Shown here in pieces: positions 9,525 to 17,840 of a stretch of 64,000 nucleotides of DNA. The translations under genes were made by a program, and so were the position numbers. The stretch spans positions 1,674,001 through 1,738,000 of the forward strand of contig NZ_CP045032.1 of assembly GCF_009026825.1 (NCBI RefSeq), written 5' to 3'. Source of the stretch: Corynebacterium urogenitale (GTDB lineage: Bacteria > Actinomycetota > Actinomycetes > Mycobacteriales > Mycobacteriaceae). Each line of letters begins with the position of its first letter. Position 1 is the first letter of the stretch. The notes beneath the pieces are model-generated. The model saw only the letters and a program-made list of their open reading frames with translations, was not told the origin of the DNA and did not search any database.

Positions 9525-9585
9525 AACCAACGCCCGCCCCCTACTACTAACGCTCGCCCCCTACTAACGCCCGCCCCCAACCGGC
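9525..9585. repeat. short C-rich tandem repeat
   Basis: Three imperfect copies of an AACGCCCGCCCCCTACT-like unit between the PH-domain gene and the palindrome array. This 300-base gap has no gene; the repeat and the palindromes at 9648-9715 are its only visible content. Confidence 0.5.
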
Positions 9586-9647: not shown

Positions 9648-9715
9648 GATAAATTTACCAACACGTCATTCGTTCGGTAAATTTACCAAGACTCCCGGGA
9701 GTTGGTAAATTTACC
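9648..9715. promoter_or_regulatory. three palindromes at exact 28-base spacing (operator/iteron array)
   Basis: The 12-mer GGTAAATTTACC occurs at 9676-9687 and 9704-9715, with a one-mismatch copy (GATAAATTTACC) at 9648-9659; starts are exactly 28 bases apart. The last copy ends 3 bases before the ATG of the ATPase gene. TTACCA (9683-9688) and TAAATT (9706-9711) are 17 bases apart and would make a promoter whose transcript begins at the ATG (leaderless); both hexamers lie in palindromes. Autoregulation is inferred. Confidence 0.8.
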
Positions 9716-9718
9716 ATC

Positions 9719-10960
9719 ATGCGTATTCCGCTAGACTCCCCTTTCAGCCCCGGCTCCGACAATGTCCCGCAAGTCTGGGCGGGTCGAACGCGACAACTCA
9801 ACGACTGGAGCACAGTGCTCCGACCACGCAGGCTTGCGGGAATACCCGAACGCGGGCGCACGATCCTCGGCGAGGCGGGCCTAGGAAAATCCTCACTCGT
9901 CCGCAGAATCGCCGCAGATGCCGCATCCCGAGGCGATTGGGTCACTCCTCAGCTGCGCATCCCCTCCGGATCCGACCCGCTCAAGCGCGTGGCCTCCGCT
10001 CTCCTTGAGGTCGCGAGAACGGCGGGACTGCCGACGTCGCGCAACAAAAAGGTCGGCGAGTTGATGAGCCGGGTAGAAACCGTCGCCGCTGCGGGTATAT
10101 CCCTGACCTTGCGGGAGCACGACGGGCCCGAACCATATTCGACTCTCACCGAGCTGCTGCTGGAGTTGGGCCGAGCGGCCCTGCGTTCAGGGGATGTCGT
10201 GGTGCTGATTCACATCGACGAGGTGCAGAACATCAGCTCAAAAGATGCGCTTTCCCAGCTCCTTATCGCTCTGGGCGACGCGATCACACATGAGGAGGAA
10301 ATCGAGGCGCCCGGTGGTTACGTGGTGCGCCGGGCTCTTCCCATCGCTGTATACCTCACTGGACTGCCCGAGTTCGCCGCGAGGGCCGGGGCTGCCAAAG
10401 GCGCAACCTTCGCGCGGCGTTTCCAAACCACCACGCTTAAGCCAATTGAACACACGGAAGTCCTCGAAGCACTTCAGCCATTCGTGATCAATGGTTGGGA
10501 TGTCAGCGATGGGCAGGGCAGTACTGAAAAGATTCGCATGACACCGGAGGCCCAGGATCAAATCGCCATGCTGTGCTGCGGGGAACCTTTCCTGTTCCAA
10601 CTGGCCGGCGAGCAGGCCTGGTACGCCTCGACAGAACCCGTGATCACCCGCGAGCACGTGCTGACCGGCTGGAAGCATGGTGCGGACGAAGCAGCGGTTC
10701 ATGTCCAACGCATCTTGGATCGACTCCCTTCCAAGGAGCTGGATTTCTTGGAGGCCATGGCCGGGCTTGAACCAGAACAGCGGACGCTCACTAACATCGC
10801 CGCAACGGCCGGGTTTGCGAAGACTTCGCAGGCGGGCAGCATTTCGCGACGGTTGGACACGGAGCGGGGCATTATCTCGCGCGGGAGGAATTACACGTTC
10901 CGCCACCGTGCGGTCGGGGCTTATTTGACCTCGGAGTGGCCAGATGTCTTCCCCGACTAG
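9719..10960 (+). CDS. AAA+ ATPase, ORC/Cdc6-like layout
   Basis: 413 residues from ATG at 9719. N-terminal 'VWAGRTRQLNDW' is followed by the P-loop GEAGLGKSS (about residues 50-58) and Walker B VVLIHIDEVQN (about 160-170). A sensor-like RRFQTTTLKPIEHTEVLEAL segment follows, and the C-terminal 100 residues look like a winged helix (TLTNIAATAGFAKTSQAGSISRRLDTERGII). This is the architecture of the ORC1-like/ATPase_2 proteins found on accessory DNA in actinobacteria. There is no Shine-Dalgarno: the third palindrome abuts the start codon. It could be an autoregulated regulator, a replication/partition-like protein or a defence ATPase; the sequence does not decide. Confidence 0.75.
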   Translation: MRIPLDSPFSPGSDNVPQVWAGRTRQLNDWSTVLRPRRLAGIPERGRTILGEAGLGKSSLVRRIAADAASRGDWVTPQLRIPSGSDPLKRVASALLEVARTAGLPTSRNKKVGELMSRVETVAAAGISLTLREHDGPEPYSTLTELLLELGRAALRSGDVVVLIHIDEVQNISSKDALSQLLIALGDAITHEEEIEAPGGYVVRRALPIAVYLTGLPEFAARAGAAKGATFARRFQTTTLKPIEHTEVLEALQPFVINGWDVSDGQGSTEKIRMTPEAQDQIAMLCCGEPFLFQLAGEQAWYASTEPVITREHVLTGWKHGADEAAVHVQRILDRLPSKELDFLEAMAGLEPEQRTLTNIAATAGFAKTSQAGSISRRLDTERGIISRGRNYTFRHRAVGAYLTSEWPDVFPD

Positions 10961-10963
10961 GGA

Positions 10964-13900
10964 TTACAGCTCCCGCACCACATCCGCGATGTCGTCCTGG
11001 CGCCGGTGCCGGAACATTGCCACTGTTCGGCGTCGTGGCGCCGATGGCTCCAAGCCCAGCGCGGCGTTCACGCGGGCCAGCGAGTCCTCCACACTTTCGC
11101 CGTCCACCACCAACTGTGGATCCAGACCCATGCTGCTGTAGACCCACTGCATACCTTCCAGGTTTGGTTGGTTGTCGGGCGCCTTGGTGACGTCGAACGT
11201 CTTATCCTCGCCGAGCCGGAGCCACACGCGCTCGCCCTCGCGCACTCCGAGGTCCTCCAGGAAGCGCCGAATGGTGGACATCGAGGCCTGCTTGAGCCGG
11301 TTCACGCGCACGTATTGCTCGCCCAGCCTGCTGTCCAGTGCGAGTTCCTCACCGACCTTCAAGCCGTAGAATGCGGCGACGCCAAGAGGCACCGGGAATC
11401 CACTTCCCCGAAGGTGATCCTTAGTGACCGTGACGAGCAGGTGCCAAACGTCGCCGCGCAGGTACACGTCGCGGGTGTCTTCGATGTCTCCCTCGATCGT
11501 GTTGCCTGTTTCATCGATGCGCTCGAAAACCATGCCATCCCTGGTTTCGAAGTCCCCGAGGGATGCGTACTGCCGGATGGATTGTTCGGAGACCTGCAGC
11601 CTGCCAGCTTCCGCGAGCAGGTCGCTGAGAGCCACTGCGGGAACTTTGCGCTGTGTTCCATCGCTTTCTGTGACGTCGTAGGTCCGCGCGCTGGTGCGCA
11701 CGCGCTGGCCGATCCAGCTCGCGATGCTCTTAAATTCCTCCATGCCCCAGTCGGCGAGTGCCCACTGGTCGGCGGAGATTTTCACCAAGCGCGGATCGAT
11801 TGCGAATTGGTTCTGCGCGGAGCGAATATTGCCGCCACCGGTGGTTTCGATAATCTCCTGTGCCTGCATAGGTTCACCGTTGATCGCCAGCACGCTCACG
11901 GCCCGGTCCTGGTGGCTGCTGACTTTGGTCAGCACTTTATCGTCCACGATGATGACCTTAAGCTCGTCGCTGGTGACGATGTACCCCTCCAGCACCTCAG
12001 CTGGAACTCCCAGCGCGTCGGCAACCTCATGGACTGTCGCCACTCCGTAGTCATCAGAGAGTTCCTGCAAAGTGTCACCCAGTTTCTGCGCGAAGCCAGG
12101 CTCCGTGGCCCATCCGTTCGCGATGTCCCACCGCTCGCCCAGGGCCACGAACAACTCGCTGTAGGTGCAACCTAGCCCCTCCACCTCGTTCGCTAGCGCG
12201 GGCAGGTTTTCCCGCACGGCGCTCACGCGTGCGACCGGACGCACCCGCTGGTGGATCGCTTCCACGACTGCCGTGAAAAAGCCGTTGTCCTCCTGAAAGC
12301 GCTGCTTCCACTGGCTTTCCAGCTGGCGCACACGTTCGCGCGTTACGCCGAATTCGGCGCCGACCTCTTCCAGCGAGGCACCGCCGATCAGACGCTTGCT
12401 GACGATCGTCAATTTGCGAGGATCAGCTTCAGTTGCCACGCGCACGTCCTCTGCCGCTCGCTTGAACACTTCGAGTACCGGATCCATGCTGCTGAGGCGC
12501 TCCACCAGCGCAGGCATAGTCGCCCGCACCGCTTCTGGGATCTCGTGCATGTCAGCGCAAACATTAATCAGCTTGTTCCATCCGGCGAACAGCGTGATCT
12601 CCGCCCACTCGCTGCCAGCCCGTGCTTTGCCAGCCCACTCACTGCCAGCCCACTCACTGCCAACCCACTCACTGCCAGTCCGGCCACCGCCCACACCGGA
12701 AGCCCAGCCGCTGTGAGGCGCATCTTCTACCGTCCCGGCAAACTCCTCGATGTGTTCTGCGTGCTGCTCGTCTTCGTAGAAACCATCCAGATGCTCCGCG
12801 TCGGTGGTCGAGGCACTGGCGTGCGAATCGATTGCTGCGAGCACCACCGCCTCAACCATTTTGTGCAGCTTATGCTCGCCAACCCCGCGCAGATCCCGCA
12901 GGTCGTTGACCGCAGCCGTCAGCGGCTCTTCAAACCGGGCGAACCATTGTGTGTATCCACTCTTGAACGAGCTCTGCACTTCGACGGGAGTGGTAGTTGT
13001 CAGCTGTGGGGACAGCTCCACAAGCGGCAGGTGGGCGTGGGTGTCGCACCATTCGATGGCCAGCTGGAGGCTGCGATCTCCTGCGGCCTGATCCGTAGCG
13101 CCCTGAACTTCTGTGCCCTGGGCTTTTGCGGCCTGACTGTTCTGGCTGCTCCACGGGAAAATGGCGGCGTAGTCGGTCGCCTCATTCGCGGACTCTACGG
13201 CGGTGAGGTCTTCCTCCACGGCGACCGTGTCCTCGGTCATGGCGCGAACGAGTTGCGCGAAAGTCTTCTCCCCCACGATGGGCACGCCGTAGTCGCGGGC
13301 TTTGCGCGCCTTGCCGCTCATGCTGTCCGGGTTCGCCGCGATGAGCAGCGCGGACTTCTTCGTCACGCCACCGACGCTGAGCCCCACCGCTTCGGCACGC
13401 TTGGCCCATTCCTCGCGCGGCAGGTCCAGCTGTCCGGTGAAGGTCACGCGGTCGCCGACCTTGAGCTGAATGCCGGGGCCACTATCACCCTGCTGAGGGG
13501 TAGCGAGGAGCTCACTGGCCAGCGATTCTGACAGTCCGAGCTGTTCCGCAAGAGTGGTGATGGTGGCACGTTCTTCGTCGGTAATGATGCCGTCCAACCA
13601 CGCTTCGATAGCTATCTGACGGAGGAATTCCTCGTGCATGCTCAGCAGGTCATCCCGCCCGAGCCCGTCGCGTTCGGCCTGCTGTCCCAGTTGGTGGATC
13701 TCGGTGCGGGAGAGTTCCTTATCGGCCAGCGCCGCGGTAAGGAGCTTTCTATATTGTTCGACACCACCAGTGCCCCGCTTGGAGATACGCGCGGAAATGT
13801 TCGCGAGCCACTGTCCTGGGGTGGCTTGTGGCGTCGACGTAGATGACGGGCGAGCGTACAGCGCACCGGACGCGGGGTACTCAAACGCGGGCAGGTCCAG

Positions 13901-14467
13901 GGCAGCGCTGCTTATGAGGAGGTCGGCTCCATCTTCGATGAGGTGGGTAAAGAGCTCTGCAGTGGCTTTCGCATCCGCGAGTGCGGAGTGGGGGCGCGTG
14001 TTGGTGATGCCGAGGAGTTCGAGGGCGTGGGTGAGGGTGCTGGGTTCGCCGGGGAAACGTTGCTTGACCAGCCTCATCGTGTCGATAATCCAGGCTCCGT
14101 AGGCGGGCCACGCTAGGCCAGCGCGGCCGAATTCACGGCGAAGGAAGCGCACCTCGAAGGGCGCATTGTGCGCGACGAGGGTGCGCCCGTTGAGCAGGCC
14201 GGCGAGTTCTCCGGAGATTTGTTCGAAGGTGGGAGCGTCGACGACGTCGCCGGCAGTAATGTGGTGGACGAAGCTGTTGGAGATGTCCCGGTTGGGCTGG
14301 ATGAGGGTTTCCCATGTGCGCTCGACTTGGTGATTGTGATCGAGTAGCACCACGCCCGCTTCGATGACTCGGTCGGTATGACCGAAGCCGGTTGTTTCGA
14401 AGTCGAGGACGGCGAACTTCTTGGGAGCGACCATGGGTACCTGCCTTGGGTTCAAACTTGTGGTCAT
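10964..14467 (-). CDS. DEDDh exonuclease-BRCT-sigma4-like multidomain protein
   Basis: 1167 residues. Residues 17-180 are a DnaQ-type 3'-5' exonuclease: DFETTG, HNAPFEVRFL and HSALADAKAT supply the DEDDh residues. About 240-330 is a helical TerB-like segment. About 332-409 is a BRCT domain (VGDRVTFTGQL ... IVGEKTFAQL). Residues 596-621 carry a GSEWA repeat. About 682-720 is a sigma-70 region 4-like helix-turn-helix (SLEEVGAEFGVTRERVRQLE). The C-terminal 450 residues contain further winged-helix-like segments. The start at 14467 gives the longest frame; ATG 14434 (MVAPKK) has a better AAGGCAGG site. Likely acts on DNA ends in repair or transcription-coupled processing, but the fusion's job is unknown. 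It converges with the AAA+ gene, 3 bases apart. Confidence 0.8.
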   Translation of the reverse strand: MTTSLNPRQVPMVAPKKFAVLDFETTGFGHTDRVIEAGVVLLDHNHQVERTWETLIQPNRDISNSFVHHITAGDVVDAPTFEQISGELAGLLNGRTLVAHNAPFEVRFLRREFGRAGLAWPAYGAWIIDTMRLVKQRFPGEPSTLTHALELLGITNTRPHSALADAKATAELFTHLIEDGADLLISSAALDLPAFEYPASGALYARPSSTSTPQATPGQWLANISARISKRGTGGVEQYRKLLTAALADKELSRTEIHQLGQQAERDGLGRDDLLSMHEEFLRQIAIEAWLDGIITDEERATITTLAEQLGLSESLASELLATPQQGDSGPGIQLKVGDRVTFTGQLDLPREEWAKRAEAVGLSVGGVTKKSALLIAANPDSMSGKARKARDYGVPIVGEKTFAQLVRAMTEDTVAVEEDLTAVESANEATDYAAIFPWSSQNSQAAKAQGTEVQGATDQAAGDRSLQLAIEWCDTHAHLPLVELSPQLTTTTPVEVQSSFKSGYTQWFARFEEPLTAAVNDLRDLRGVGEHKLHKMVEAVVLAAIDSHASASTTDAEHLDGFYEDEQHAEHIEEFAGTVEDAPHSGWASGVGGGRTGSEWVGSEWAGSEWAGKARAGSEWAEITLFAGWNKLINVCADMHEIPEAVRATMPALVERLSSMDPVLEVFKRAAEDVRVATEADPRKLTIVSKRLIGGASLEEVGAEFGVTRERVRQLESQWKQRFQEDNGFFTAVVEAIHQRVRPVARVSAVRENLPALANEVEGLGCTYSELFVALGERWDIANGWATEPGFAQKLGDTLQELSDDYGVATVHEVADALGVPAEVLEGYIVTSDELKVIIVDDKVLTKVSSHQDRAVSVLAINGEPMQAQEIIETTGGGNIRSAQNQFAIDPRLVKISADQWALADWGMEEFKSIASWIGQRVRTSARTYDVTESDGTQRKVPAVALSDLLAEAGRLQVSEQSIRQYASLGDFETRDGMVFERIDETGNTIEGDIEDTRDVYLRGDVWHLLVTVTKDHLRGSGFPVPLGVAAFYGLKVGEELALDSRLGEQYVRVNRLKQASMSTIRRFLEDLGVREGERVWLRLGEDKTFDVTKAPDNQPNLEGMQWVYSSMGLDPQLVVDGESVEDSLARVNAALGLEPSAPRRRTVAMFRHRRQDDIADVVREL
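12604..12678. repeat. 15-bp in-frame tandem repeat (5 copies)
   Basis: Five consecutive 15-base units (CCCACTCACTGCCAG type) from 12604 encode the GSEWA repeats in the linker of the exonuclease fusion. Confidence 0.85.
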
Positions 14468-14643: not shown

Positions 14644-16446
14644 ATGGCGCGAACGAAGCTTTACATCCGTGAGGTCGATTACTCACAGGAGTCGCTGACT
14701 CAATTGCGCAGCGACCTTGAAAAATCTCCTGACAGATCCAAGAGTGAGGCCGAGCTCCGCCATCTTTTTCGGTTCCCGACTGTCTACATCGTCCATAACG
14801 ATACGCAGCAGTCTTACGGAGAGTCTTCTTACGACGTCTACGTTGGCGAGACTAGCAATATCGAAGGTCGAACGCTTCAGCACTTGAATGCCGATTCCAA
14901 AGCCCGTGCGGACTGGGAAGCCTTCGCTCGGGCAAAGAACCCCAAAATGTTCGTCATTGGCCACGACCATTTCAACAAATCCCTCACCCTAGACATTGAG
15001 AATCGATTGATGTCCTACTTGGTGGGCGTTGATTGTGTGAAGCAGCTCAACAATCGACGCATGAACCAGCAGCTGGAGTACTACACGCAGGATGAGTTCG
15101 ATGAGATCTTCAGCAAGATTTGGCGAGGCCTGCGTAAGAAGAATAAGCGCTTATTTCCTGCAGAGTCCGTCATCAGAGACTCTGCTCTCTTCAAAGCTTC
15201 CCCATTTCACAAACTAACCCAACAGCAACTCAACGCTAAGAGTGCCATTCTCGGCAGCATCACAGAAGCGCTTCAAAACCAAATGAACGGTCAGCTCATT
15301 TTGGTTTCCGGAGATGCCGGAGCAGGAAAAACTGTTCTTCTGAGTAGCCTTTTCTTCGAGCTCTTTCAGGCATCAGAATCGCCAGACGATCCGATGAGTT
15401 TCCAAGATCTTGATGCCTACTTGCTAGTTAATCACCTCGAACAGCTCACCGTGTACGAGACCATCGCTCGACGACTGGGTGTCCTAAAGAAGGACAAGGA
15501 TAGAGTTAGCCGGCCTACACGATTCATAAATCAGCACGACCCATCTAGGTCGGACGATCTCGCCGACGTCGTGCTCGTGGATGAGGCGCATCTTCTCTGG
15601 ACCCAAGGCAAGCAAAGCTATCGTGGCAAAAATATGCTCGAGGATCTTCTCAAGCGGTCCAAGGTCGTGGTTGCGGTTTTCGACGAAAAGCAAGTACTCG
15701 CGGGCAACCAGTTCTGGGAACAAGACCGACTCAAGGAATTAAGGGCAAGGGCCGACCAAACGATCCGTTTAACGAACCAGATGCGAATGGATGCAGATCC
15801 GAGCACTGTCCAGTGGATTAGGCAACTCATCGAACAGGGAACTGTTGGGCAAATCCCTCCGGACTCTAGAAACTACGAGATCAAGATTTTCGAAGACCCC
15901 CACGCACTCCGCGACGCTATTAAGCAGAAAGCCACAGCGAATGATGATCGAGGACTCTCTCGCCTAGTTGCAACTTTCGATTGGCAGTATTCAAGCGCTA
16001 GAAAGCCCCCCGGGGGAACTTGGAACGTCGAGTTTGGCGACTTCTGCATGCCCTGGAACCGAGAAATTGAGCTATCACCCCAAGAAAAGCGAGCTTACCG
16101 TGGTCTGTCTTGGGCGGAACAACCGCAGACGATTGATGAAGTCGGCTCAACTTTTACCATCCAAGGCTTCGACCTCAACGTCGCAGGCGTAATCCTTGGC
16201 CCTTCAGTTCAATGGCGGGATGGAAGAATCGTCCACGTTCCTTCCGAGAGTAAGAATTCGGCAGCTAAGAACAAGAGAACCCTTTCAGACGGTTCGAAAG
16301 CAGATGTTGCAGAACACCTCTTAAGAAACGAGCTAAACGTCTTGCTGACTCGTGGCGTTCACGGCCTCTACATTTATGCGGTAGACCCAGAGCTGCGTGC
16401 ACGCCTAAAAGAGGCAACAGATTCCGCCGCGCATCCGACGAATTAG
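14644..16446 (+). CDS. GIY-YIG nuclease fused to DUF2075 (Schlafen-like) helicase
   Basis: 600 residues from ATG at 14644. Residues about 45-135 have a GIY-YIG-type fold signature (TVYIVHND ... YDVYVGETSNIEGR). The rest is a DUF2075-type superfamily 1 helicase: Walker A SGDAGAGKT (about 222-231), DEAH-type Walker B VLVDEAHLLW (about 309-318), a motif III-like KVVVAVFDEKQVL, arginine-rich TNQMRMD and a C-terminal LLRNELNVLLTRGVHG motif VI. Nuclease-helicase fusions of this kind are associated with defence or DNA/RNA processing, but no specific role is established to my knowledge. Base composition is lower in GC than its neighbours, suggesting transfer. Confidence 0.75.
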   Translation: MARTKLYIREVDYSQESLTQLRSDLEKSPDRSKSEAELRHLFRFPTVYIVHNDTQQSYGESSYDVYVGETSNIEGRTLQHLNADSKARADWEAFARAKNPKMFVIGHDHFNKSLTLDIENRLMSYLVGVDCVKQLNNRRMNQQLEYYTQDEFDEIFSKIWRGLRKKNKRLFPAESVIRDSALFKASPFHKLTQQQLNAKSAILGSITEALQNQMNGQLILVSGDAGAGKTVLLSSLFFELFQASESPDDPMSFQDLDAYLLVNHLEQLTVYETIARRLGVLKKDKDRVSRPTRFINQHDPSRSDDLADVVLVDEAHLLWTQGKQSYRGKNMLEDLLKRSKVVVAVFDEKQVLAGNQFWEQDRLKELRARADQTIRLTNQMRMDADPSTVQWIRQLIEQGTVGQIPPDSRNYEIKIFEDPHALRDAIKQKATANDDRGLSRLVATFDWQYSSARKPPGGTWNVEFGDFCMPWNREIELSPQEKRAYRGLSWAEQPQTIDEVGSTFTIQGFDLNVAGVILGPSVQWRDGRIVHVPSESKNSAAKNKRTLSDGSKADVAEHLLRNELNVLLTRGVHGLYIYAVDPELRARLKEATDSAAHPTN

Positions 16447-16721: not shown

Positions 16722-17840
16722 CTACCCAATTTGCGCCTTAGTCACGCAGTCGATTTTGGCGTAGGGTCGCCCCTTGTCATCGGTATTCGTCATGGCGTAG
16801 TTACCACCGTACGCACGACAACCCGTGTAGCCATCATATCCGCCTCCACCACCGGCAGTAGGTGCTGGTGCTGGCTGTGGTTGTGGCTGTGGCGCAGGTC
16901 GGGGTACCGGAGCCGGTGCAGGCACATACGCTGAGTCATCACTTGGACTCTCCAAGTCATTGAACAGCGCGTCTAGATCGGATGTTGATCCAGGCTCTGG
17001 TGGTTCCTTCAGCTCAGGAACGTCGTTGTCCTTTTCATCCTTGTAGTCCTTAAGGAGACGCTTATAGTCTCGCTCCAACTCATCCAAGTCCCCCTCAATG
17101 CGATCGACTTCAATGTTCAACCTCTCCGGCTCCCGGGAAGTGTAAAAGTCTGATAGGAGGTGAGTTGATACCGCGGCCTTCAAGGAAGACCGAATCTCTG
17201 GCAAGTCGTCGAGGAACTTTCCGGCGATATTGACAGCGGAAACGGTTACAGCACCGTCGGCGGCGCCCGACTGCTGTGCTGCTCGTTGAGCATTCTGGAA
17301 ATCCTGGCGAGCCTCAGGATTACGAATCAAGCAATCAACCGGCACATCAAAGACACCCAGGCTCTTGCTCTTAGCCGAATCGGCAGCCGCCTTCACCTGC
17401 GGATAGAAGCGATCATTTCCATTGAAGATTTTGGCATCAGCGAGACCTCGCGCTGTAATAGCCTCATTGACAAGAAGGTCTCCTTTGAAGATGCCTGCCA
17501 GCTCGCGATCGTAGGGGTCGTGGATCTCCGCATCATGTTCCAGCCTGACCTCGGTTCCTGGAGGAAGTGTTTCCTCTAGGAAAGACTTCGCATCTTCAGC
17601 CAAGCATTCGGACGGTTCACCGTTTCTACCAATCTCCGGAGTATCCACATTGAGCAATCGAACCCGGGTACCCACTCCATCCCCCTTGTCCACCTCAACA
17701 GTGTCGCCGTCAATGACGCGCAATATTGTTGCTGTGTTCTCAACCTGTGGATCGTCTTCTGTGAAAACGAAATGATTAAGCGCAGCATATGCAAGGCTCC
17801 CCGTGCCTACGACTGCCACAGCGGCTTTTCCGAAACCCAT
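16722..17840 (-). CDS. membrane-anchored or secreted thermonuclease (SNase) family protein
   Basis: 372 residues from ATG at 17840, with a GTGGAG ribosome site. A hydrophobic N-terminal stretch (about 5-22) serves as signal or anchor. The staphylococcal-nuclease domain spans about 38-170: VIDGDTVEV, RVRLLNVDTPEIG, and YDRELAGIF supply the usual catalytic Asp/Arg/Glu positions. A charged coiled stretch (about 230-265), a Pro/Ala linker (about 300-335) and a short C-terminal cysteine-paired module (GCRAYGGNY ... KIDC) follow. Predicted role: degrading extracellular nucleic acid for nutrition or biofilm release. Confidence 0.8.
   Translation of the reverse strand: MGFGKAAVAVVGTGSLAYAALNHFVFTEDDPQVENTATILRVIDGDTVEVDKGDGVGTRVRLLNVDTPEIGRNGEPSECLAEDAKSFLEETLPPGTEVRLEHDAEIHDPYDRELAGIFKGDLLVNEAITARGLADAKIFNGNDRFYPQVKAAADSAKSKSLGVFDVPVDCLIRNPEARQDFQNAQRAAQQSGAADGAVTVSAVNIAGKFLDDLPEIRSSLKAAVSTHLLSDFYTSREPERLNIEVDRIEGDLDELERDYKRLLKDYKDEKDNDVPELKEPPEPGSTSDLDALFNDLESPSDDSAYVPAPAPVPRPAPQPQPQPAPAPTAGGGGGYDGYTGCRAYGGNYAMTNTDDKGRPYAKIDCVTKAQIG

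Follow-up and report, generated by a model that had tools for sequence, protein, structure and literature searches.

A putatively self-regulated AAA+/winged-helix ATPase gene behind a palindromic operator array in Corynebacterium urogenitale

A 64,000-nucleotide stretch of Corynebacterium urogenitale DNA (positions 1,674,001 to 1,738,000 of contig NZ_CP045032.1, assembly GCF_009026825.1), referred to here as the window, carries on its plus strand a probably leaderless gene for a 413-residue AAA+/winged-helix ATPase (9719..10960). Immediately upstream lie three palindromes beginning at positions 9648, 9676 and 9704, spaced 28 and 28 bases apart, the last of which stops 3 bases before the ATG at 9719. 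In all these respects the array is as an earlier note on this DNA had described it. The best reading of the evidence presented below is that the gene encodes a leaderless, ATP-binding autorepressor that would recognize only its own promoter, and a probability of roughly 0.78 is placed on it.

The operator array and the ATPase gene

The distal palindrome O3 (9648..9659, plus strand, as are all array features) reads GATAAATTTACC, a copy that carries one mismatch, and the middle and proximal palindromes, O2 (9676..9687) and O1 (9704..9715), both read GGTAAATTTACC. The core G.TAA..TTA.C occurs in the window exclusively at these three places. Across the complete 2.35-Mb genome, palindrome matches with at most one mismatch are confined to the same three places, and a backwards-read control pattern likewise gave three matches per strand. 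Since 3 of 100 shuffled windows also reach three or more matches anywhere when two mismatches are allowed, the palindrome count alone is modest evidence. The clustering is extreme, with none of 100 first-order resampled windows holding three cores within 60 bases (mean 0.11 sites). Just upstream of the array there is also an imperfect 17-base tandem repeat of about 2.7 copies (9529-9578).

Palindromes laid over promoter-like hexamers suggest that the array contains the promoter of the gene. A -10-like hexamer, TAAATT (9706..9711, of the form TAnnnT), sits inside O1 and ends 7 bases before the ATG; it follows by 17 bases a -35-like hexamer, TTACCA (9683..9688), at the edge of O2. The claim that hexamers 17 bases apart both sit inside palindromes stands for the spacing and for TAAATT; TTACCA extends one base past its palindrome. 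If each palindrome carries one hexamer, a 17-base spacer needs the 28-base operator period. The available excerpts of a source on Corynebacterium glutamicum promoters (PMC3890552) describe TAnnnT as the -10 motif, 3-11 nt away from the transcript start and separated by a spacer of 16-19 nt from a weak ttgnca element, and give 33% of mRNAs as leaderless. At the window gene there is no Shine-Dalgarno motif and the -10-like element lies about 7 bases before the start codon, as expected of a leaderless gene.

The ATPase itself contains GEAGLGKS at residues 51-58 (9869..9892, by alignment) and IHIDE at residues 164-168, which we take to be its Walker A and Walker B-like motifs. In an AlphaFold2 model, a C-terminal winged-helix domain spans residues of about 338-404 by our domain reading (10730..10930). 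Within it, the model together with the half-site covariation described below points to a recognition helix, H3, at residues 369-382 (10823..10864), including residues 374-375 (codons at 10838..10843). The predicted structure has the ORC-like order of an AAA+ domain followed by a winged helix. Over its whole length it also has the fold of the archaeal ATPases (PF01637) and the STAND class, and is predicted to lie close to archaeal ATPases and NLR/CED-4. The proposed likeness to ORC/Cdc6 proteins thus holds at the level of the fold and fails at the level of sequence, as the curated orc1/cdc6 model TIGR02928 gives the window protein 12.4 bits against a cut-off of 181.3. Among other models, AAA_16 and AAA_22 match all 35 family members (the window protein falls just below the AAA_16 cut-off and just above that of AAA_22) and ATPase_2 matches 8 of 35 at E up to 0.1, the best at 0.006. 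No solved structure matches the ATPase by sequence at E 0.01, and no PADLOC family matches it at E 0.1. In 1 of the 63 homologues described below (L036, Brachybacterium subflavum), glutamate replaces the Walker A lysine and both palindromes are retained.

Conservation and exclusivity of the sites

A scan of contigs found 38 relatives of the ATPase, 58-70% identical over the best segment, in Brachybacterium, Brevibacterium, Leucobacter, Actinomyces, Microbacterium, Curtobacterium, Plantibacter and other genera. Close homologues at E 1e-40 occur in 3 of 394 genomes of the class, the genome under study included, and in 23 of 398 genomes of one family. The array was compared in 63 sequences, namely that of the window and those of 62 homologues whose start could be read and which are 54-70% identical to the window protein. 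These were drawn from 42 close loci and 24 later ones, with L096, which is the window itself, left out. The set excludes L057 and L061 (no N-terminus by the pattern used) and L111 (motif not found), and also omits L008, L009 and L119, which are partial or in pieces. When near-duplicates are filtered, 46 sequences remain at 90% identity and 55 at 97%, both without L059.

At least one exact copy of GxTAANNTTAxC precedes the start in all 63 sequences: five have one copy, 55 have two and three have three, so that the proximal palindrome is universal and a second exact copy is found in 58. The gap from the end of the proximal copy to the start codon is 3 bases in 52 sequences, 2 bases in 10 and 4 bases in one. 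Spacing between palindromes in the 58 multi-copy sequences is 28 bases in 36, 27 in six, 29 in six, 30 in two and 31 in eight. The TTA.C of the -35-like hexamer is fixed by the motif searched, and the following base is A in 74% of the 63. Start codons are ATG in 46, GTG in 16 and GCG in one (L059, which also ends early), and GGAG, GAGG or AGGA is found at -16 to -4 in none of the 63. In two Actinomyces loci, L057 and L059, GCG occupies the conserved start-codon position directly after an intact palindrome.

Homologues lacking the palindromes had been named beforehand as what would speak against self-control, and every one of the 62 with a readable start has at least one. Among loci outside the set, L057 and the gene of L111 show sites, L009, a match in pieces, has one site with a mismatch, and L061, a match beginning at residue 24, has none. 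The expectation that the same 12-mer recurs in related genomes proved right for the palindrome, which is kept, and wrong for the letter after G, which is mostly A, is G or T in some clades, and is rarely C. Taken alone, the exact pair might seem to refute the prediction, since letter for letter it is found in this genome alone among 151 of the genus; a direct reading of the homologues shows otherwise.

The sites also appear to be exclusive to the ATPase gene. In 30 homologue genomes, exact TGATAANNTTATCA occurs at 34 places in 21 genomes, in one cluster per genome, and the reversed control gave no match. All 34 places adjoin the ATPase gene. A script located the ATPase N-terminus downstream in 20 of the 21 loci; L086, missed by its regular expression, was placed at the ATPase gene too by coordinates and by a reading of PFQAG in its protein (L068). 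The other nine genomes lack exact TGATAANNTTATCA because their sites deviate from this stricter pattern. No regulon beyond the ATPase gene was found for the close family with exact sites in these 30 genomes. In a wider survey, the paired array was present in 24 of 398 genomes of one family and the reversed control was absent. Twenty of the 24 also have a close homologue, which accounts for all but three of the 23 genomes that do; those three have a single site or the C variant.

The half-site and the predicted recognition helix

Who binds the array can be approached through the varying letter of the half-site. Residue 375, in H3, explains more of the half-site variance than any other of 271 alignment columns (R2 0.58). 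By region, mean z peaks in H3 at 2.61, the other regions lying at 0.57-1.09, in the 46 sequences left by the 90% filter. Among the 63 sequences, Thr375 goes with only-A operators in 33, with G in 13 and with T in two; an aromatic residue goes with T in seven and with only A in one; other residues go with T in three, G in two and only A in two. In other words, the half-site is T in seven of the eight sequences with Phe/Tyr375. In a tree-aware regression, based on the AAA-domain tree, Thr375 is the top association of half-site A among 921 residue tests. Collectively these results suggest that the ATPase itself very probably binds the array directly. One genome, G938, holds two close copies (L103 and L118) with half-sites GGTAA and GATAA and with differing H3 letters, and offers a natural insulation test.

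Turning to the wider family, 112 of 151 genomes of the genus contain a relative at E 0.001. The paralogues that were read are about 30% identical and have an NPFRP-like start in common. The libraries searched assign the wider family no function. Close family and paralogues align by hhalign with a probability of 99.9 over 357 columns, the winged helix included. From 84 places among the matches listed, three without the start motif were dropped and 81 kept. Strong tandem or long direct repeats precede the start in 74 of these 81, compared with 12 of 810 resampled controls, and the other seven have neither. In the paralogues, neighbouring half-sites usually lie 8-9 bases from each other and are grouped into pairs spaced by about 25-29 bases or triples spaced by about 34-37. 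Their words include TTTATCAA, TTTATCGG, TCTCCC, TCTAACA, TCTAAA, CCTACA and CGTACA, and TTTATCAA includes the TTATCAA half-site found in the palindromes. In two loci, read by eye, the half-site pairs lie inside longer inverted repeats, as they would in the loop of a hairpin (L184, CGCCCCG...CGGGGCG; L181, TTAACCG...CGGTTAA). Among distant loci of the phylum (L210-L228), a start was readable only in L210, L212 and L220; 15 others yielded none and L211 was misread. Repeats or a palindrome-like site stand at the start in all three of these actinobacterial relatives, L210 being on a Euzebya plasmid and L212 having a different word.

In the paralogues, too, the operator class appears to follow H3. 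At one H3 position, Ile, Leu or Val is present with nine of nine TATCGG operators and with one of 19 TATCAA operators (Fisher p 1.4e-6, uncorrected for ancestry), and the lone TATCAA exception, L164, has a mixed operator. At that position L126 reads DLR where L014 and L018 read DTR, and its operator has GG instead of AA. For 71 paralogues with an assigned class, 48 after filtering, the partial Mantel correlation of H3 with class given AAA identity is 0.151, a value reached by none of 500 permutations.

The paralogue word TTTATCNNTTTATC has matches in 21 of 25 genomes, at 42 places of which 36 adjoin an ATPase gene by coordinate. Of the six elsewhere, two lie upstream of one type of frame and one lies before another; from their translations, the first are presumably tyrosyl-tRNA-synthetase-like and the last YraN-like. 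These six were given no weight as a regulon, since by a rough estimate about one match is expected by chance in 25 genomes, and the reversed control gave one. In L207 and L186, from two genomes of the genus, the first base of the paralogue word TTTATCAATTTATCAA stands 39 and 36 bases ahead of a frame that we take to encode tyrosyl-tRNA synthetase. These sites may mark a real second target, or a chance match passed down from a common ancestor.

Alternative readings and known systems

Downstream of the ATPase gene lie three further genes. A 1167-residue protein (10964-14467, minus strand) combines a DEDDh exonuclease, a weak BRCT-like stretch and a sigma-70 region 4-like helix, and strongly matches the candidate defence model PDC-S48. 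A 600-residue protein (14644-16446, plus strand), whose gene lies within a stretch of lower GC content (about 0.53), has a weak GIY-YIG nuclease match and a strong Schlafen group 3 helicase match. The third is a staphylococcal-nuclease-like protein (16722-17840, minus strand) with an N-terminus that looks signal-like by eye. The earlier note's remark about several nuclease genes nearby thus holds in the window for nuclease-like genes. When the longest non-overlapping open frames of 38 loci and the window were clustered, which is coarse in GC-rich DNA and with some short contigs, no widely shared neighbour emerged. The largest clusters besides the ATPase were generic ABC-type proteins at six loci, shadow frames of the ATPase at six, and four related Actinomyces. 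A partner gene was rejected on these grounds, and no transposase was recognized among the neighbours examined. Twenty relatives besides the genome itself were searched for an empty site, and none was close enough to show one.

As a mechanism, a one-gene feedback module may be proposed in which an archaeal-ATPase/ORC/STAND-like AAA+ protein with a C-terminal winged helix would bind sites that occur only in its own promoter, probably as one dimer per palindrome and cooperatively along the array. Since two of the palindromes hold the -10-like and -35-like hexamers, the occupied array would exclude RNA polymerase, resulting in autorepression. The 5' end of the transcript would lie on the ATG or no more than a few bases away, and translation would proceed without a Shine-Dalgarno sequence. 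As for the trigger, our guess is that oligomerization of the ATPase changes with its nucleotide state, or when it senses a ligand or an invader, and that this relieves the repression. Because the array accompanies the gene through unrelated contexts, is confined to it in the genomes searched, overlays both promoter-like hexamers and has letters that covary with the predicted H3, probable self-control of the gene through the array, with a leaderless start, is well supported, in line with the earlier note's suggestion that the protein or a partner binds there.

Several observations weigh against this autorepressor. A strict sigma-70 scan reported no promoter at the array, its hexamers matching at four of six positions each (8 of 12) where the cut-off is nine. 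The exact 28-base spacing is found in no more than 36 of the 58 multi-copy sequences, and the 31-base spacing of eight of them needs a 20-base spacer, so promoter geometry does not explain every array. By z, residue 375 ranks third, behind columns 243 and 244. For half-site T the tree-aware regression places Phe/Tyr375 second, behind Val243 and with Leu282 just after, which indicates that shared ancestry explains part of the covariation. The association of half-site G comes largely from one clade, and in L047, L068, L108 and L116 the H3 letters depart from those of their own half-site class. In the paralogue Mantel tests, H1 (0.084, reached by 16 of 500 permutations), the wing (0.072, 26 of 500) and H2 (0.055, 34 of 500) also retain some correlation, and if the paralogues too are autorepressors, their direct repeats imply that the binding mode changed. 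Finally, four genomes have a paired array with no full ATPase alongside. In G763 the array adjoins what is left of the ATPase, roughly its 55 C-terminal residues, and of the three with no adjoining homologue, two have a weak distant relative elsewhere in the genome. Such orphan arrays, which lie at L352, L368 and L375 with no ATPase gene alongside and at L369 with a C-terminal remnant, are perhaps leftovers after gene loss.

Dedicated regulators with palindromic operators are common, and a different host regulator, such as a small HTH protein encoded elsewhere, could bind the array and leave the ATPase as a mere target. This is improbable, as such a regulator would have to remain unseen yet coevolve with the ATPase helix: the array accompanies the gene across genera in which no neighbour is widely shared, is absent from every other gene of the 21 genomes that have exact sites, and varies in its letters, in each of two separate groups, together with the recognition helix predicted for the ATPase itself. 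Still harder to sustain is an ORC-like initiator loaded onto an origin-recognition-box or iteron-like array. AT content is 61% in the array itself, and no AT-rich unwinding stretch adjoins it, the 211 bases upstream having 38% and a best 30-base window of 53%. Over the 64 kb, cumulative GC skew falls from -0.14 to -2.18 with no lasting turn at the locus, although a few of the 2-kb windows have slightly positive values. AT content and skew led to the rejection of an origin at the array as improbable, and they do not support the loading site proposed in the earlier note. The sites overlie promoter-like hexamers and the orc1/cdc6 model fails by a wide margin, which further argues against an initiator. 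So does the near absence of the ATPase from mobile elements: a single relative, distant at 37% identity, was found in 72,556 plasmid records and none in 50,697 phage records. The plasmid count also speaks against an iteron-controlled plasmid replication gene. Viral contigs held no member of the close family and four distant matches to the paralogue profile. Single palindromes occur in at least 119 of their stretches, and five paired-array matches, three of them on one stretch, look like chance.

An immune or stress role would supplement the autorepressor and leave its control part unchanged. In such a case the ATPase may be a solitary STAND-type switch kept low by autorepression until a phage- or stress-derived trigger converts it into an active oligomer, and the silence of a solitary gene would be explained. 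The predicted fold close to archaeal ATPases and NLR/CED-4, the patchy occurrence of the close family, and the helicase/nuclease-like protein and candidate-defence exonuclease downstream are consistent with such a role. It is nonetheless doubtful, given that no effector domain is seen in the ATPase, that PADLOC matches are weak for paralogues and absent for the window protein, that the neighbours are not conserved, and that the wider family, common across the genus, behaves more like a resident gene. Less likely than not, and offered tentatively, is a broader picture of a large family of stand-alone bacterial ATPases in which each copy has a private DNA word, placed on its own promoter alone and read by a few winged-helix residues. 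Paralogues would be insulated by changes of word, the direct repeats of one branch would be equivalent to the palindromes of the other, and the role of the DNA-binding end would be to hold down an NLR-like ATPase switch that might do harm, up to the point at which a trigger alters its nucleotide state.

Autoregulation as such is known. As far as our searches go, no description exists of a family of solitary ORC/STAND-like ATPases whose promoter words are private and covary with the protein; by title and abstract start, none of the open-licence papers listed deals with these ATPases. The operator code can be read from dozens of naturally occurring pairs of a recognition helix with its half-site. 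With them, DNA reading by an ORC/STAND-like winged helix, control of repression by an ATP switch and the insulation of paralogues become testable, and the sites could provide orthogonal operator-repressor pairs.

Among known systems, MalT, AfsR and IniR combine an ATPase with a DNA-binding domain to control transcription, and are large regulators of other genes. Unlike them, the window ATPase has 413 residues and sites only at its own promoter, and the IniR model weakly matches one of 11 paralogues (E 0.0015). The transposition ATPases TnsC and MuB differ in that here there is a C-terminal domain with dedicated promoter sites, and no transposase was recognized. We know of no operator or autoregulation for SSO1545, PABY2304 or the STAND class. 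The first two, both archaeal ATPases (PDB 2fna and 2qen), have the nearest folds, yet at 14-15% identity, and no sensor repeats or effector domain are seen in the window ATPase. The archaeal Orc1/Cdc6 proteins of haloarchaea and Sulfolobus share with it an AAA+ domain and a C-terminal winged helix, and, in the available excerpts of one source, the presence of several paralogues with repeated sites, particular to each, next to their genes (PMC3528665). They differ in that the sites here fall on promoter-like hexamers at a probably leaderless start, with no AT-rich unwinding region beside them and no sign of an origin in 64 kb, and in that the window ATPase fails their sequence model. In haloarchaea, as described in excerpts of two sources, orc/cdc6 genes have boxes of their own with letters that follow the protein family (PMC3528665, PMC3936714). 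By analogy, a haloarchaeal orc/cdc6 gene with its own boxes may be the nearest precedent in logic for the ATPase gene and its array.
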